DNA from: Siphonodentalium dalli | Lineage: Eukaryota; Mollusca; Scaphopoda; Gadilida; Siphonodentaliidae | Assembly (NCBI GenBank): GCA_032622095.1 | Contig: CP136068.1 | Location: 127,851,989 to 127,915,988, forward strand | Direction of reading: 5' to 3' | Length of the DNA stretch: 64,000 bases | Shown here: piece after piece, positions 1 through 57,323 of the stretch | How positions within the stretch are numbered: position 1 is the stretch's first letter | Layout of the letters: every line of letters starts with the position of its first letter | Translations under genes and position numbers: made by a program | Notes under the pieces: generated by a model | Database searches by the model: none | The model's input: the letters and a program-made list of their open reading frames with translations, nothing else | Told to the model about the DNA's origin: nothing

Positions 1-57
1 TCTCTTAGATATGCGAGGCGACCTATGTCGACTCGCATATATAAGAGAATGCATTGG
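1..57 (-). repeat. 67 bp hairpin cassette, copy 1 (truncated)
   Basis: The left 10 bases are missing at the window edge. One G is lost next to the loop and one stem base is changed (TTAGATATG for TTATATATG). Orientation is reversed (G-arm first), with CACAGGG following, as in copies 39796 and 56931. Confidence 0.9.
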
Positions 58-835
58 CACAGGGCATAACTGTAACCATCACAATGTGGTCAATGAACCG
101 GTTCCAATGATATCCATATTAGTGTGGTCGTCAGAGGGTTCGACCCGGAAGAAATTGGTATAGAAGCGGTTTTGGTGTCATTCGACGCGGGAGAATCTCG
201 TGTATAACATATCCAAAATCCGCTAAAATCCGCTTTGGGCAAAATTCAGGATCCAACATGGCGTCCAACATGGCTGCCGTTAGTCAAAAGATACTCTGAC
301 TGAGATTAATTCGATAACAGTGAGAACAAATGTTGTCATATGTATACAAATGTATACATTTTTGCAAAGGTAAAATGTTGTGCCACCTGTTTATGGCAAA
401 AATGGAACCCATCGTCCCAGATGGCCGCCAAAATGGCGGCCTAAACTAGAACATTTGAAGTTTTTGCCTAATATCTTAAAGATCAATTCCTGTTGTTTGA
501 TAATGGTTCAGACTGGCGACATTGATTAGTCATATTCATGTTAATTCATCATTGGAGCAATGAAAGATACCATAAATGGGGTCCCAGACTCATCTACACT
601 CTCAAAAATTCGATTTTACAGAACGCGGTATAAAATTCCACAAAACTCTCCATTGTGATTACAGTCATATATCAACAAGAAATGGACAGAACTGTACAAT
701 GTAAGTTGGGCATACCAATATCTATAAATACTCCAATTCAATGAAACCCAAATTGGCGCTTTGTCTCAAAATGGCTGCCAAAATGGCGGTCAAAATATGG
801 AAAATGGCGGATATTGATCACAGTGTCATTCAATC

Positions 836-3539
836 CATTATAAGTAGTGGTTGATGAATAAAATTGACTAAATAAATACGAATGGATACCTCTTTATGAT
901 GCCATTATGCTAGCTCTATGTAAAAACTTAAAAATCAGTACCAAAAATGGCTGCCAAAATGGCCACCCGATGTGAAAAATACTATTTTCTATCACTTCTG
1001 TTTATCACTTGTTGCTCTCTGAACTGGGAAACAATGGGTATATTCTTTCAATGATCGTGTCAACTGATCATTACAGCAATGACATTTCTAATAGATTATA
1101 TCATAGTTTACTCTGGTCCTTCACTAATAAGTTATAACGAATGTGGTATGAAATTTAACCAAAATCGACTTTGGAGTTCTGGTCACATTTGATTTTTAGG
1201 GATGAACAGATCTTGTCTACAAAATAATTGATAAAATAGACCAAATAGACAAAAAGAAACAATAAATTTTATCTAATATGGTTCCAAAACGAAAATGGTA
1301 GACTCTGCCCAGCTTATCACATAATGGAAGTTGTGAGTGGTGGATGCAGTTGATAGTTGGCTCATATACATGTATGTGGCTCATATACATCAAAACTATT
1401 TATTTTCAATCTTTTAGTGGCTTCCCGCGGGTTGACAAAATCTCGACTCATCAGTGCTATAATGTCGTATATCCATTTTGGCGGGAAATGAGTATTTGAT
1501 ACCATTCGAATCGTGAGAAAAAATCCAATCCGATGGGCCAAACTGTCCTTGCATTGGATGACAAATATTCGCACAAACCAGTGAAGTAAATGTCGTATCT
1601 CCAGCGATCTTTACAATTATTCGTGCTATGAGGTCGTATGTCCAACAGCAGCCAATCGGACGCTTCATGTTGTCCACGTGACTTCTGTTTTGTGTTTGTG
1701 AATTCTGAAATGTGTGCTATATGGCAGTATCTCCATGTTAGTCACGTGATCATTTGGTGATTTAAATTTTGTGATTGTTCCACACATTTCTGTATGATGA
1801 TGCACATGGGTGAATTTTCATAGTGTAGAATAGGCACTTTTTAGTTCATAGACACATGCGATTGCCACCATATTTAGCTTAATCTGCATTTATTAGCACA
1901 ACTTCATTATAGCACGGAAACGAATCGTCGCTGGCATGTCATATCTCCAAACAAGCTATTGCTTTTTAAAAGAAAACGAGGGAATACACAGAAAACAATA
2001 TGTGGTTCAATGAACAGCTAATGTCAGTTTTCATTGGGATAAATACAACAATACGTCATGCTTTGTCAACATTAGGAGAAATGTTGTCTAAAAACTTCAA
2101 CCTTCATTTTCTCGGAAAGTTGAAAATATGGGTTACATTATAGCACTGATGCGACGAAATGTTAACTATTCGGGCTCGGCCATCATTTTCAAGTTTCAAG
2201 CTGGAACTAAATGTAGCCCATGGATTCCCCATTCGACATGTAAGAAAAGTAGTTTTACTCTGATCTCTTCCCAGATATCAACTCTCCAGTAAATGGTGAT
2301 CTCGTGTGCCAAATACATATATGTATGAAGAAACTATCCCCATACATTGTTTACACATCGACTCCGTAAGTATGTGGAGGTTTTCTTGGACAAGCGGGAT
2401 TTTCAAACCTCGAAACCGTCCGTACAAACAATAAAATTTAATAGGAAATGACGTTGGATGTAGGTCTAGAGTACGTCGTCCGCATGAAATAGTTTTCGTG
2501 TCTTTAATTTACACATATTTCGTGCTCTGATGAGCATGGATGAACGCCTTATGTGGCAGTTTGATTGTCTAACATCCGGAAAATAACATGTTCATTGTTC
2601 ACATTTCTTAGACAAACATGTTGTTAATCACCATGTTCATGTGGCATTTCTATCCAATGACAACCTTGAAATGCCAGTTATTCAAGCTAAATGGTTGATA
2701 CCTTCAGATCCGGCCGTGATGCACATTGTGTCTACATATCATTGATGAAATTCACTACATGTGTAGAAGATATAGGTGCGTCTATATATGTACTAGAATG
2801 TTTCTATCCACATGTATATACCCACAATCGCATGACACGGAATTGTCACATAAAGTGTGAAGGGTATACAATGTACGTGCGAATTTTCATTTTTTCCTCT
2901 TGATATTGAAGAAAATAATTTTACTTTGAAACCCCCCGGCTCCGATAACCAACTTGCCCACCAATTAAATAAACCCCAGATTATTCGCTTTTCCCTCCTG
3001 TCCTTTTCACTTTCGCCAGCACTGGAACACCTATTATAGCCTGATGCTTCCGGACTACCACCGATGCCCATATATTTGATGTTCCGAATAGTCGTTATAA
3101 GTAGAAATGTTGACACTGTGTTTTCAAATAATCCAGATTCGTAGCAATTTAATTTCTTTTTAATTAATTTCCAGATAGTCCCTCGTAATAAGTGGACATC
3201 GTGTTGGATCCTGCAGTAGATACTGCTTAGTTGGAACATTTCGGGCTGAACTGATTGTGGAAGTAGATTATTGGCAACATGTTTAATAGGTCTCTCATCG
3301 TTATCTCACAACCGAAGTGTTGTTTCGGCTTTCCTCTGAGCAGAACTTAAATTTCGACAATTTTCGGTGGCCATTTTGGTAGCCATCTTAGCATTTTGAA
3401 TCGTGATTGGCTACTCATACCCACAAAAAACATTGATTTCAATCAATGATGTGTATTGGTGCCGAATTGGCGTTTTGTCGAATGGGTTTTCGTGAATAAC
3501 TACATATTTGCCATTTGCATTATTATTGGCGACCATGTT
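836..3539. other. Centre of the long-TIR element, no gene seen
   Basis: Non-coding as far as can be read. A loose phrase, GTGCTATAATGTCGTATCTCCA-like, recurs near 1456, 1590, 1623, 1712 and 1932. Another AAAATGGCNGCC/AAAATGGCCACC pair near 945-965 has an inverted match near 3366-3394. The open frames present are short and lack domain motifs. Confidence 0.6.
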
Positions 3540-3673
3540 GGACGTCATCTTGAATTCTGTATTTTCCCCAAAGCGGATTTTAGCGGATGTTATACACGAG
3601 ATTCTCCCGCGTCGAATGACAACAAAACCGTTTCTTTACCAATTTCTTCTGGGTCTAACCCTCTGACGACCAT
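3540..3673 (-). repeat. Extra internal copy of the long-TIR element tip
   Basis: The reverse complement of this segment begins GGTCGTCAGAGGGTT and follows the outer tip at 129-270 closely, including the CGCGGGAGAATCTCG and CGCTAAAATCCGCTTTG words. It sits directly inside the right arm in the same orientation as that arm's own tip, so the right side carries two tips in tandem and the left side one. Confidence 0.75.
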
Positions 3674-4594
3674 TCTAAATATCTGCCATTTTCCATATTT
3701 TGACCGCCATTTTGGCAGCCATTTTAAGACAAAGCGCCAATTTGGGTTTCATTGAATTGGAGTAATTATAGATAATGGTATGCCCAACTTACATTGTACA
3801 GATCTGTCCATTTCTTGTTGATATACGACTGGAATCCCAATGGCGATTTTTGTGGAATTTTATACCGCGTTCTGTAAAATCAAATTTTTGAGGGTGTATA
3901 TGAGACTGGGACCCCATTTATGGTATCTCTCATTGCTCCGATGAGGAATTAACATGAATATTACTAATCAATGTCGCCAGTCTGAACCATTATCAAACAA
4001 CAGGAATTGATCTTTAAGATATTAGGCAAAAATTTCAAATTTTCGAGTTTAGGCCACCATTTTGGCAGCCATCTGGGGCGAGGGGTTCCATTTTTTCTAT
4101 AGATATGTGGCATAATACTTTACCTTCGCAAAAATGTATACATTTGTATTAATATGGCAACATTTGTTCTCATTATGTCGAATTAATCTCAGTCAGAATC
4201 TCTTTTGACTAAAGGCGGCCATGTTAGACGCCATCTTGGATCCTGGATTTTGCCCAAAGCGGATTTTAGCGGATTTTGGATATGTTGTAGCAGAGATTCT
4301 CCCGCGTTGAATGACACCGAGATCGCTTGTATACCAATTTCTTCTGGGTTGACCCCTTTTTTTGCGTACCACGACCACACTATATTTGTATGGTGTTATT
4401 GAGACAGACCGAAGATATTTTAGGCTGTTGAAGCTTTATTTAGGCGTTTTTGGCCGTTTTGTTGGGTAAAGGGTTAAATATTTGCACACAGATGGGAAGC
4501 AGATACCTGTCGGAGCTGTTGTTATGAGTTTGCTTCTGATCATGCTGCTACCATTCCACTGTTTTTGGGTTGTATTATAATATGATGGAATATG

Positions 4595-4764
4595 TTAACC
4601 CTTTACCCAACAGAACGGCCCTGTGCCAATGCATTCTCTTATATATGCGAGTCGACCATAGGTCGCCCCGCATATATAAGAGAATGCATTGGATTAACAC
4701 ATTAAAAATTATAAAATTGTTAAAGAATGGCCAGTTTTGACCGGTTTGTTGGGTAAAGGGTTAA
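4595..4764. mobile_element. TTAA MITE family 1, copy B (170 bp)
   Basis: Bounded by TTAA at 4595-4598 and 4761-4764. The terminal inverted repeats read CCCTTTACCCAACA and TGTTGGGTAAAGGG. The interior is almost entirely the hairpin cassette plus an AT-rich tail. It is a short derivative of the 400 bp copy at 39617. Confidence 0.9.
4626..4692 (+). repeat. 67 bp hairpin cassette, copy 2
   Basis: Same 32-3-32 layout as the reference copy at 52204, with one extra substitution in the right arm (CCCCGC for CCTCGC). Preceded by CCTGTG and followed by an AT-rich tail. Confidence 0.95.
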
Positions 4765-31511: not shown

Positions 31512-31687
31512 TTAACCCTTTCAGTGCCAAGTCCGATTTTTGTATCAACCCATATTTCCTGGATCATGTTTCAAATTTATTGATTATAATAATGTGATAC
31601 ATTGATGGAAAGAGCTCTGAGAGCATGAAACATGATCCAGGAAATATGGGTTGATACAAAAATCGGACTTGGCACTGAAAGGGTTAA
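31512..31687. mobile_element. TTAA MITE family 2, end-duplicated palindromic form (176 bp)
   Basis: TTAA at both edges. The terminal repeats start CCCTTTCAGTGCCA and extend as about 65 bp of nearly perfect inverted sequence (CCGATTTTTGTATCAACCCA on each side). Other family 2 copies have this sequence at only one end, so both ends here derive from the same end. It lacks the 67 bp hairpin. Confidence 0.92.
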
Positions 31688-39134: not shown

Positions 39135-39569
39135 TTAACCCTTTCGTGACGGGAGCTGCACTGGCGCAACATTAAAGACCCTGTGCCAATGCATTCTCTT
39201 ATATTTTCGAGTCGACCATAGGTCGCCTCGTATATATTAGAGAATGCATTGGCAATACAATCTTTTATCATTTTTTATCATGTTTTCTTACATTCTTTAA
39301 TATATTTTTTTTATCATTTTTTCTTACATTCTTCATAAATTTTTATCATTTTTTTTATAATATTATCTTACATTCCCTAACAATTTTTTATCATTTGTCT
39401 TGTATTCAATAACAATTAAAAAAAAAATCATCATTGTTCCTTACATTCTTTATCAATTTTTATCAATTGTTCTTACATTCTTTAACAATTTTTTTGATTA
39501 TTACTTCTTAATGCATTGACATGAGGGTTTTAGCAAAAATTCAGGAAGCTCCCGTCATGAAATTGTCAA
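39135..39569. mobile_element. TTAA MITE family 3 (435 bp)
   Basis: The left end is TTAA-CCCTTTCGTGACGGGAGC. The right end, GCTCCCGTCATGAAATTGTCAA, is its decayed mirror (GGGTTAA changed to TTGTCAA). It contains hairpin copy 3 and an extended AT-rich tail in which ATCATTTTTTCTTACATTCTT-type units repeat about five times (39255-39500). Confidence 0.85.
39186..39252 (+). repeat. 67 bp hairpin cassette, copy 3
   Basis: The most diverged full-length copy: TATATTTTCGAG on the left arm and CTCGTATATATTAG on the right, so pairing is slightly weakened. The asymmetric centre mismatch is kept. Confidence 0.95.
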
Positions 39570-39647
39570 GTCACGAGAAGTACTCCTTTTGCTAGAGCTT
39601 GTAGAATAATGCGATGTTAACCCTTTACCCAACAGAAGGGCCCTGTG

Positions 39648-39714
39648 CCAATGCATTCTCTTATATATGCGAGTCGACCATAGGTCGCCTCGCATATATA
39701 AGAGAATGCATTGG
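39648..39714 (+). repeat. 67 bp hairpin cassette, copy 4
   Basis: Identical to the copy at 52204 although the surrounding element belongs to another terminal-repeat family. Confidence 0.97.
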
Positions 39715-39795
39715 CTTAACACATTAAAAATTATAAAATTGTTAAAGAATGTAAGAAAAAATGGTAAAAAGTGTTAAAAACAGATTTTGTTTAGG

Positions 39796-39862
39796 CCAAT
39801 GCATTCTCTTATATATGCGAGGCGACCTATGGTCGACTCGCATATATAAGAGAATGCATTGG
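39796..39862 (-). repeat. 67 bp hairpin cassette, copy 5 (reversed)
   Basis: Exact reverse complement of copies 4 and 6, including the position of the mismatch. It is followed by CACAGGGC, the mirror of the CCCTGTG that precedes copy 4. Confidence 0.97.
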
Positions 39863-40016
39863 CACAGGGCATAACTATAACCATCACAATGTGGTCAATG
39901 AGCCGGTTCCAATGATATCCATATTTGTGTGGTTTTATGGAGACAGACCCAAGATAATTTAGGCTGTTGAAGCTTTATTTGGCCGGTTTTGGCAGGTTTG
40001 TTGGGTAAAGGGTTAA

Positions 40017-52151: not shown

Positions 52152-53111
52152 TTAACCCTTTCAGTGCCAGGTCCGATTTTTGTATCAACCCATATACCCT
52201 GTGCCAATGCATTCTCTTATATATGCGAGTCGACCATAGGTCGCCTCGCATATATAAGAGAATGCATTGGCCTAACAATCTTTCATCATTTTTTACAATT
52301 TTAATAATTTTTTCTTATATTCTTTAACAGACTTATTTTGTAGTTTTAGTGCCAGGGAATCTTACGTTTTTCATGGGCATCAAAATTATTGCCATGAATA
52401 CTTGGTGATAGTTTTGACTTATAACATGCCCCTAAGGTTTCATTCAGTTTGTTTTTAAATTTGCTGTAGCATACTTAAGCATACCCAAAAAAATTCAACA
52501 CAAAAAAAAAACTAAAAATTATAATTTTTAATTTTTTAATTTTTGTAGGGCCGATTTTACAGACCGTAAATTAGGGCCGATGAGATCGGCCCCTGGCACC
52601 GTTGGCGGTGGGTATGCTGTTAAAGTATTCACCTCCGTCAAAAACCGCCATAAACAGAAATAATAGTAAAATATAAACAGACCTTGTTCTTATACCAATC
52701 AGAAATATGTCATAAACAGTATGTTATTGTCAAATGTTTACCTTTGTTGTGTAAACAAAAGCAAAAAACCTTACTTTTGTTTAGATCCGGATATGGTAAA
52801 CAGAAAGAGCGTTATTTGTTACTGTTGTCCTGATATGGAAATAATAAAGAGCGTTAATGTCATTTGTGTGTGAATACAGTGTGATTAACCACTAGAATTG
52901 CGCTGTGTTATGTAAAAAGAAGCAAAACTTCTGTAACACGAGCAGGCTCTTGTTTACGTAAACCATCGTACGTATTGACGACCACATACTATTTACGCGC
53001 TGATTATGTTTGTCATATGAACACAACTATATATATATTAATATTCCTTCTGTTGATGGCGATTTGAACAAATATGAATATTTCTGTAACGAACGCCGCC
53101 CGTGCCTTTAA
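52152..53111. mobile_element. Composite TTAA element: family 2 left part fused to family 4 right part
   Basis: The left edge TTAA-CCCTTTCAGTGCCAGG (52152) and about 447 bp of family 2 sequence with hairpin copy 6 run up to CCCCTGGCAC (about 52599). The sequence then continues as family 4 (CGTTGGCGGTGGGTATG, matching 32722 onward) to GCCCGTGCCT-TTAA at 53108-53111. The lost family 2 right end and lost family 4 left tip meet at a shared GGCAC. Only one TTAA is present at each outer edge. Confidence 0.85.
52204..52270 (+). repeat. 67 bp hairpin cassette, copy 6 (reference)
   Basis: The left arm starts CCAATGCATTCTCTTATATA and runs 32 bases to GAGTCGACC. The loop is ATA. The right arm GGTCGCCTCGC... 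ends GAGAATGCATTGG. The arms pair at 31 of 32 positions. The single mismatch (T in GAGTCG against C in CGCCTC) gives the hairpin a direction. Confidence 0.97.
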
Positions 53112-56618: not shown

Positions 56619-57049
56619 TTAACCCTTTCAGTGCCAGGGGCCGATCTCATCGGCAATAATTTACGGTCTGTAAAATCGGCCCTAAAAAAAAAAAAAAAAA
56701 AACCTTTGTTTTGGGTATGCTTAAGCATGTTATAGCAAATTTTAAAAAAAAATGGATAAAACCTTAGGAGCATGTTATAACTCAAAACTATCACCAAGTA
56801 TTCATAGTAATAATTTTGATGCCCATGAAAAACGTAAGATTCCCTGGCACTAAACCTACAAAATAAGTCTGTTAAAGAATATAAGAAAAATTTATTAAAA
56901 CATAATAACAAAAGATGAAAAATTGTTAGGCCAATGCATTATCTTATATATGCGAGGCGACCTATGGTCGACTCGCATATATAAGAGAATGCATTGGTAC
57001 AGGGTATATGGGTTGATACAAAAATCGGACCTGGCACTGAAAGGGTTAA
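56619..57049. mobile_element. TTAA MITE family 2, full copy (431 bp)
   Basis: TTAA at 56619-56622 and 57046-57049 with CCCTTTCAGTGCCAGG / CCTGGCACTGAAAGGG ends. It is in the opposite orientation to the family 2 part of 52152-53111, with the same internal order (GATCTCATCGGC end, AT-rich middle, hairpin, CAACCCATAT end). Confidence 0.94.
56931..56997 (-). repeat. 67 bp hairpin cassette, copy 7 (reversed)
   Basis: One substitution in the outer arm (ATTATCTTAT for ATTCTCTTAT). The centre and mismatch are conserved. It is followed by TACAGGG. Confidence 0.97.
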
Positions 57050-57323
57050 AACTTTTTATGTTTAACTTGAAAAAATAGCAAAATAAGCTTCTTGATATAC
57101 CGTATGACACGCACACGAAGCAAGTGGAATTGGATTGACAGTTGAATCATAATGACAACTGGGGCAATCGGATACTAATATCGTTACACTGTTCTTTTGT
57201 TTTATGTACCCCATCATATATGAGTACGGGGACGTTCTTGGTGCCAAAAAAGTGGTAGACACTGTCAGTGTATTTGACATCGACTGACATCACTAATACT
57301 CAATAATGCTGATCAGATCATCG

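Follow-up and report, generated by a model that had tools for sequence, protein, structure and literature searches.

A 67-bp hairpin with a conserved mispair, shared by several families of short inverted-repeat elements in the genome of Siphonodentalium dalli

The window (the whole stretch of 64,000 nucleotides that was analyzed) holds seven copies of a 67-bp hairpin, distributed among elements that we assign to families A, B, and C, as well as one B-type miniature inverted-repeat transposable element (MITE) that lacks it. The copy under study lies in a B element. The relevant features of the window are as follows:

1..57, minus strand: hairpin copy, the right-hand one of a long A element, clipped by the window edge (the TTAA end of the element lies ~200 bp upstream of the window; locus L001 comprises the left hairpin and this upstream end)
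1..4477, no strand assigned: remainder of the long A element, with the end ..TTGTTGGGTAAAGGGTTAA and inverted arms at 135-815 and 3678-4357
4595..4764, plus strand: short A element with one hairpin, TTAACCCTTTACCCAAC...TTAA
4626..4692, plus strand: hairpin copy of the short A element (sequence match)
31512..31687, no strand assigned: hairpin-less B-type MITE, an inverted-repeat element whose 45-bp end is nearly the same as that of B
39135..39565, plus strand: C element, with a left end TTAACCCTTTCGTGACGGGAGCTGC of the G-family type, a hairpin of the new type, an AT-rich tandem tail, and a degenerate right end
39186..39252, plus strand: hairpin copy of the C element (4 changes)
39617..40016, plus strand: typical A element of 400 bp, with TTAA at either end and two inverted hairpins
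39648..39714, plus strand: left hairpin of the 400-bp A element (sequence match)
39796..39862, minus strand: right hairpin of the 400-bp A element (sequence match)
52152..52601, plus strand: B element with hairpin, TTAA lost at the right end
52204..52270, plus strand: the hairpin under study, in the B element (sequence match)
56619..57049, minus strand: B element with hairpin, TTAA at either end
56931..56997, minus strand: hairpin copy of the preceding B element (sequence match)

The inverted arms of the long A element are 680 bp in length, 91% alike, and flank a centre. Three ORFs of this element were tested and gave no Pfam hit, and none of the five window ORFs searched against Pfam had a match over the cut-off.

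The hairpin unit can be written as CCAATGCATTCTCTTATATATGCGAG-T-CGACC-ATA-GGTCG-C-CTCGCATATATAAGAGAATGCATTGG, that is, two 32-bp arms that flank ATA, with T27·C41 as the sole mispair. Folding returns the predicted stem both as RNA (-50.9 kcal/mol, z = -13.9) and as DNA (-33.2 kcal/mol, z about -14). An earlier note, made from the letters of the window, had claimed seven copies, at 1, 4626, 39186, 39648, 39796, 52204, and 56931, with one mispair common to them; all are found there, and T27·C41 is seen in seven of seven. The further claim that the arms pair fully except at that position holds for the copies at 39648, 39796 (in minus-strand reading), and 52204, which are identical over 67 bp, but not for the other four. 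Those at 4626 and 56931 have one change each, resulting in one further unpaired position each; the copy at 39186 is the most diverged of the window (four changes, three further unpaired positions); and the copy at 1, to which the genome adds nine bases upstream of the window edge, is missing one apical base. The identity of copies 39648 and 52204 despite their differing host elements (A and B, respectively) was thus correctly reported, and it extends to 39796. The CCCTGTG lead-in does travel with the hairpin (in the variant CCCTGTA at 56931), whereas the AT-rich tail, also said to travel with it, is present but differs from family to family.

A search of the whole genome had been proposed in the earlier note. 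The genome that contains the window comprises 2.23 Gb in nine contigs, and pattern matching of a 25-bp hairpin core (≤3 mismatches) counts 161,144 places in it, compared with 0 for the reversed control pattern. Because of these counts, and because of the z of -13.9 for the RNA fold, a chance origin of the hairpin copies is excluded. Copies spread over the genome were drawn by a rule that asked for nothing beyond the centre of the hairpin and a short word at some distance from it. Sorted by eye, the 39 copies of this spread sample comprise 21 of A (including L056, for which the interior alone was seen), 11 of E, three of B, two of C/G, one A/E chimera (L059), and one E interior without E ends (L036). 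The hairpin is therefore common to at least four terminal-repeat families, where three had been claimed. Further sets were fetched as 20 of 60 A places, 20 of 23 E places (one local duplicate, and two for reasons of space, were omitted), and 20 of 26 B places. It should be noted that loci L004-L020, L140-L159, and L180-L199 are the first places listed, all on contig C1, and are not spread over the genome. On the same contig, at 742,000-926,000, hairpin pairs recur at a spacing of ~14.5 kb and then ~11.2 kb, a large tandem duplication.

The A element is ~400 bp long, has CCCTTTACCCAAC ends, and contains two inverted hairpins separated by 81 bp; TTAA flanks both sides in 17 of the 18 A elements with both ends located (20 were examined). 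B is also of the TTAA type, with CCCTTTCAGTGCC or CCCTTTGAGTGCC ends and a single hairpin, and measures about 215-480 bp when the hairpin is present. A fourth family with TTAA, G, has the ends CCCTTTCATGACGGGAGCTGC and CCCTTCCATGACTGGAGCTTCCTG and holds an older form of the hairpin as an inverted pair; many B and G ends start at TTAA. A and G have a common architecture (CCCTGTG-hairpin-spacer-hairpin-CACAGGG), and the C element of the window combines G-type ends with the new hairpin. Overall, A, B, and C/G fit the description of a TTAA-type (piggyBac-like) MITE, as they are short and non-coding, with terminal inverted repeats that start with CCC (ends CCCTTT...). The hairpin is placed near the element end, between CCCTGTG and the AT-rich tail; in A, E, and G there are two, inverted relative to each other.

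The E element (~457 bp, GTGACCCGCC ends, two hairpins) has a different target site. A 4-bp target duplication matches on both sides in 24 of 32 cases (mostly ATAT, two ATTT, one AAAT), where shuffled pairing expects 18.3, given that ATAT dominates; TTAA is read in one of 64 E flanks. Because the E target is 4 bp and ATAT-like and that of A and B is TTAA, the hairpin occurs in elements of two target-site classes. We also considered E as a TA-duplicating Tc1/mariner MITE. TA is present on both sides in 24 of 33 cases, yet the ATTT/ATTT (2) and AAAT/AAAT (1) cases, although few, fit 4 bp and not TA, which speaks against this candidate. Among 20 E loci, two full-length hairpins are kept in 10, one in eight, and none in two, often via internal deletion. 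Since only half of the loci keep both, an intact hairpin is unnecessary for an E element to persist. Internal deletions in the hairpins were seen by eye in L101, L102, L105, L108, L111, L112, L114, and L117, as is expected of unstable palindromes.

The hairpin consensus is the same at 67 of 67 positions for A-left, A-right (18 copies), E-left, E-right (5 copies), and B (6 copies), and this consensus recurs in 69 hairpins of A and E elements that were sampled through their ends. When the B end was drawn regardless of the hairpin (n = 26), the hairpin was present in eight cases and absent in 18. Twelve of the hairpin-less ends were among the 20 loci fetched, and in 12 of 12 there is no core within 6 mismatches over 661 bp; these loci include whole palindromes of about 215 bp (L166, L168, and L171 are hairpin-less B-type MITEs of 212-215 bp, each a nearly perfect palindrome over the whole element). 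In the eight hairpin-bearing B loci, the left 45 bp are almost identical and the sequence beyond is divergent, as is the right end where it could be located, which makes this a joined or chimeric element rather than a clean insertion. L059, one of the 39 spread copies, is an A/E chimera with its junction at the hairpin, and in L134 the hairpin is combined with a portion of the left end of B and with a different core. Within family A, L098 has three hairpins in tandem 147-bp units and in L099 the left hairpin is flipped; both testify to hairpin-to-hairpin recombination within elements. L084 had also appeared to be a three-hairpin element, but its third hairpin belongs to an adjacent A element, leaving L098 alone.

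It could be argued that all of this is plain common descent, with a single family that changes its ends and a hairpin that is merely a slow-changing old stem, nothing having been transferred. The architecture common to A and G, and the G-type ends with a new hairpin in the C element of the window, would fit such a history. We nevertheless regard it as distinctly improbable: the 45-bp B end also occurs without the hairpin (e.g., in the whole-palindrome MITEs), E differs in both its ends and its target site, and there are also the A/E chimera L059 and the L134 mosaic. The earlier note had proposed "a transferable or selected module" and not each family's own stem. This view is supported by the 67/67 consensus in A, B, and E, by the B end with and without the hairpin, and by the L059 junction, all of which bear on transfer, and, as regards selection in the source elements, by the compensated pairs that distinguish old and new forms, the retained mispair, and the absence of shared variants from the A hairpins (see below).

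Individual copies are a different matter. Singleton changes in A amount to 1.0% and 0.6% in the hairpins (with the flipped L099 counted) and 0.7-1.4% in the flanks, and in E to 1.2% and 1.1-1.3%, respectively. Because these rates are about equal, single copies are not conserved, and after insertion the hairpins decay as their surroundings do. A lower divergence of the hairpin was in part an artefact of choosing copies by the hairpin itself, and for singletons it was gone once elements were sampled by their ends. The earlier note had named, as a pattern that would speak against a module, uniform divergence along the element with all copies in one family. The first part does describe singletons within families; the second is not the case.

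Shared variants (present in several copies) we take as marks of source lineages. In A, where the cells are non-independent, these occupy 0 of 2,647 cells in the hairpins versus 36 of 4,667 in the flanks; in E, the corresponding values are eight of 2,290 and 35 of 5,809, a contrast weaker than that in A and again of non-independent cells. The fresh changes in the 69 new copies from end-chosen elements are 39 one-sided and 0 compensated, and arm-to-arm repair therefore does not act on fresh mutations, which points to selection acting on the source elements. The opposite reading, in which there is no selection and the arms are kept alike by palindrome repair from arm to arm, can draw on the flipped hairpin of L099 and the three hairpins of L098, both of which indicate recombination at the level of the hairpin. 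It is very unlikely in our view, given the 39 one-sided versus 0 compensated changes in copies not picked by the hairpin. Also, such repair would mend the mispair, yet T27-C41 is intact in 68 of 69 end-selected copies, as well as in 14 of 14 core-selected loci (the latter had been located by their similarity to reference sequences with T and C at these positions).

The older form of the hairpin has the apex TCTCCC-ATA-GGGAGC and occurs at 57,055 places at ≤3 mismatches, a count that possibly includes some decayed new copies. Its loci were first reached via adjoining core sequence and not via the hairpin. Outside the selected core, the old arms are 7.4% off their own consensus (17 of 20 loci; L189, L197, and L199 are omitted owing to arm indels, but retained with shifted positions in the pair counts below), compared with about 1% singletons in the new copies. 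Because of this greater divergence, G is the older host and a likely source of the hairpin.

The old left form departs from the new one at sites 4, 29, 30, 38, 39, and 64, which make up three compensated pairs, and the mispair is retained (this describes 10 of 20 old copies, those with G at position 4). In the remaining 10, the sites that set them apart are the four apical ones, and a three-copy consensus of the old form differs additionally at position 24. Across the 20 old copies, pair 4-64 is GC in nine, AT in six, AC in four, and GA in one, with the count shifted in three of the 20 by arm indels. This pair is less well defined than its two apical counterparts, as a clean GC or AT is seen in just some of the old copies. 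The two apical pairs are fixed by the search pattern in these 20 copies, but they are seen also in the core-selected loci. When six sites are drawn at random, three mated pairs result in 90 of 2,000,000 draws, and this is before complementarity is demanded.

We also scored an alignment of 31 copies (24 distinct), comprising 11 of 14 core-locus copies (three with indels were omitted), 16 of the 69 end-selected copies (hand-picked), and four copies from the window. The fraction of cells paired (93.4%) and the number of both-sided changed cells (18) each exceed all 500 shuffles, and the covariation score is 0.096 versus 0.049 when shuffled, with 0 of 500 shuffles as high. Neither the double-change pairs, 4 in number, nor the 12 pair types stand above the shuffles, of which 139 and 414, respectively, of the 500 are as high. 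At a few pairs the covariation signal is strong, and it stems largely from the two source forms.

Compensated changes suit RNA as well as DNA, and the RNA fold (-50.9 kcal/mol, z -13.9) would suit a hairpin that is transcribed and acts as RNA, whether as a small-RNA source or as a processed stem like MITE-derived microRNAs. However, a scan of the window, in which A, B, and C are all represented, yields no Rfam family at the gathering score, and a tRNA scan of the window is likewise empty. At a low threshold, five D/E loci give sub-threshold matches alone, mostly to microRNA models, and a long stem can explain these. In addition, a 3-nt loop is tight for known small-RNA processing. An RNA role is therefore doubtful, in our opinion, although compatible with the stem. 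A SINE with a highly conserved domain was considered and rejected, as the Rfam and tRNA scans of the window show no tRNA-, 5S-, or 7SL-derived head and none appears in the sub-threshold hits of the five D/E loci. Exact 30-mer scans of viral and prokaryote collections returned 0 matches. In a literature search that was thin on subscription journals, GCGAGTCGACC occurred only in papers irrelevant by title, the other sequence strings were without occurrence, and we found no published account of the hairpin.

For elements of the TTAA type with CCC ends, another explanation is that the hairpin is a transposase-binding palindrome, serving as an accessory site for a single transposase by which all of these elements are moved. 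The ends of piggyBac and piggyBat hold palindromes bound by cysteine-rich domains (CRDs), as described in PMC11707139. Those of piggyBac are 19 bp long and bound by CRD pairs, and by analogy this precedent makes a binding role possible for the hairpin. At least two piggyBac loci of the present genome (L062 and L064) have, by eye, short palindromes of their own next to TTAA (ACGTCCGTAACTATTACGGACGT; GGCGACGAGATATCTCGTCGCC twice). Several observations make this explanation unlikely, though it deserves consideration. From 128 PF13843 matches listed, 20 piggyBac transposase stretches (~4.2 kb each) were searched, and the hairpin core is found within 6 mismatches in 0 of 20; thus there is no autonomous element bearing the hairpin among those 20 loci. 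Moreover, the E target is ATAT-like and not TTAA, B ends that lack the hairpin outnumber those that bear it (18 versus eight of 26), and a 67-bp unit with 32-bp arms exceeds the 19-bp CRD site.

The many contexts of the hairpin might instead suggest a tiny mobile element (MADE1-like) nested in others. The case most suggestive of this is L036, in which an E interior with both hairpins and no E ends is bounded by perfect 42-bp direct repeats. A second such case was sought in 20 loci with odd flanks, and none was found, but this is a weak test, as most proved to be ordinary E elements (13 of 20 were scored, a left unit edge was found in nine, and 0 of nine were above their own shuffles; the last seven were read by eye). 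Against nesting, a CCCTGTG lead, at times as a near variant, and recognisable element parts accompany the hairpin in the 39 spread copies (one of them, L029, being broken inside the hairpin), and no target duplication of the hairpin's own is seen in them. The hairpin seems not to be mobile by itself, and we consider this possibility the most remote of those weighed here.

A separate stem-loop core of 75-80 bp (..GGAGCCCCTCACAGACATGAGCAGACGACAC..GGGGCTCC..) was encountered at 484 places at ≤1 mismatch (e.g., L121, L122, L125, L127, L129, L130, L135, and L139). In 15 of 20 loci it has a flanking direct repeat above 50 shuffles, 19-72 bp long in most, and some of the loci are tandem arrays of 107, 129, or 176 bp. 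Element E contains a diverged relative of this core.

We hold, with moderate confidence, that the hairpin is a structured DNA domain of non-autonomous MITEs that is constrained in the source elements and passed between families by recombination. Its origin would lie in the older TTAA family G, where it was already paired and where the C copies carry the new form. Families with other terminal inverted repeats may have acquired it when hairpin copies recombined or served as alternative templates, as could happen during the repair of a cut or stalled element from a second copy. Elements with a folded hairpin (a cruciform or a single-strand DNA hairpin) would leave more copies, and the hairpin would be kept for this reason. 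We infer that a DNA role in replication or in repair-coupled amplification is likelier than that of a binding site for one transposase. One caveat applies: the families are young (about 1% singletons), and could share an identical hairpin simply through recent transfer. A bolder version, in which the hairpin is a transposase-independent amplification domain made of folded DNA with a required mispair, raises the copy number of its carrier, and is taken up by families with different transposases and targets, we put forward only tentatively, as the less probable extension of the structured-domain reading. How certain MITEs come to be so much more numerous than their parents has long been asked, and the hairpin adds a concrete part through which an effect on copy number could be tested.

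MADE1-type palindromic MITEs are short, nearly perfect hairpins with microRNAs, but MADE1 is the whole element, whereas the hairpin described here is a domain within elements. According to the summary in PMC8268682, the stem-loop models that Izsvak et al. and Hikosaka and Kawahara proposed for MITE amplification and tandem growth have single-strand folding of inverted repeats drive copying or tandem growth, and L098 and the tandem cores would fit such models; as summarised there, they do not involve a single hairpin across families, or one kept by compensated changes. The palindromes of piggyBac and piggyBat, in the passages of PMC11707139 noted above, are similar in belonging to TTAA elements and lying just inside the end, but they are short CRD sites, unlike a 67-bp hairpin with a fixed mispair that occurs also in a non-TTAA element. 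Galileo, a foldback-like element, has long inverted repeats, exchange among subfamilies, and chimeric copies, according to the pertinent part of PMC3573991. It is, however, one element of the P superfamily, and here a short hairpin is exchanged, between partners with TTAA or ATAT-like targets. A further parallel is the MITE MER6, which carries and spreads V, a conserved domain from SINEs (PMC6887750). Both cases have a conserved domain spread by a MITE, with V common to elements of another type. V is SINE-derived and is found in one Mariner-derived MITE and its variant, whereas here a DNA hairpin occurs in several MITE families with different ends and in far more copies. The hairpin would be a DNA-transposon counterpart of the conserved domains common to unrelated SINE families.
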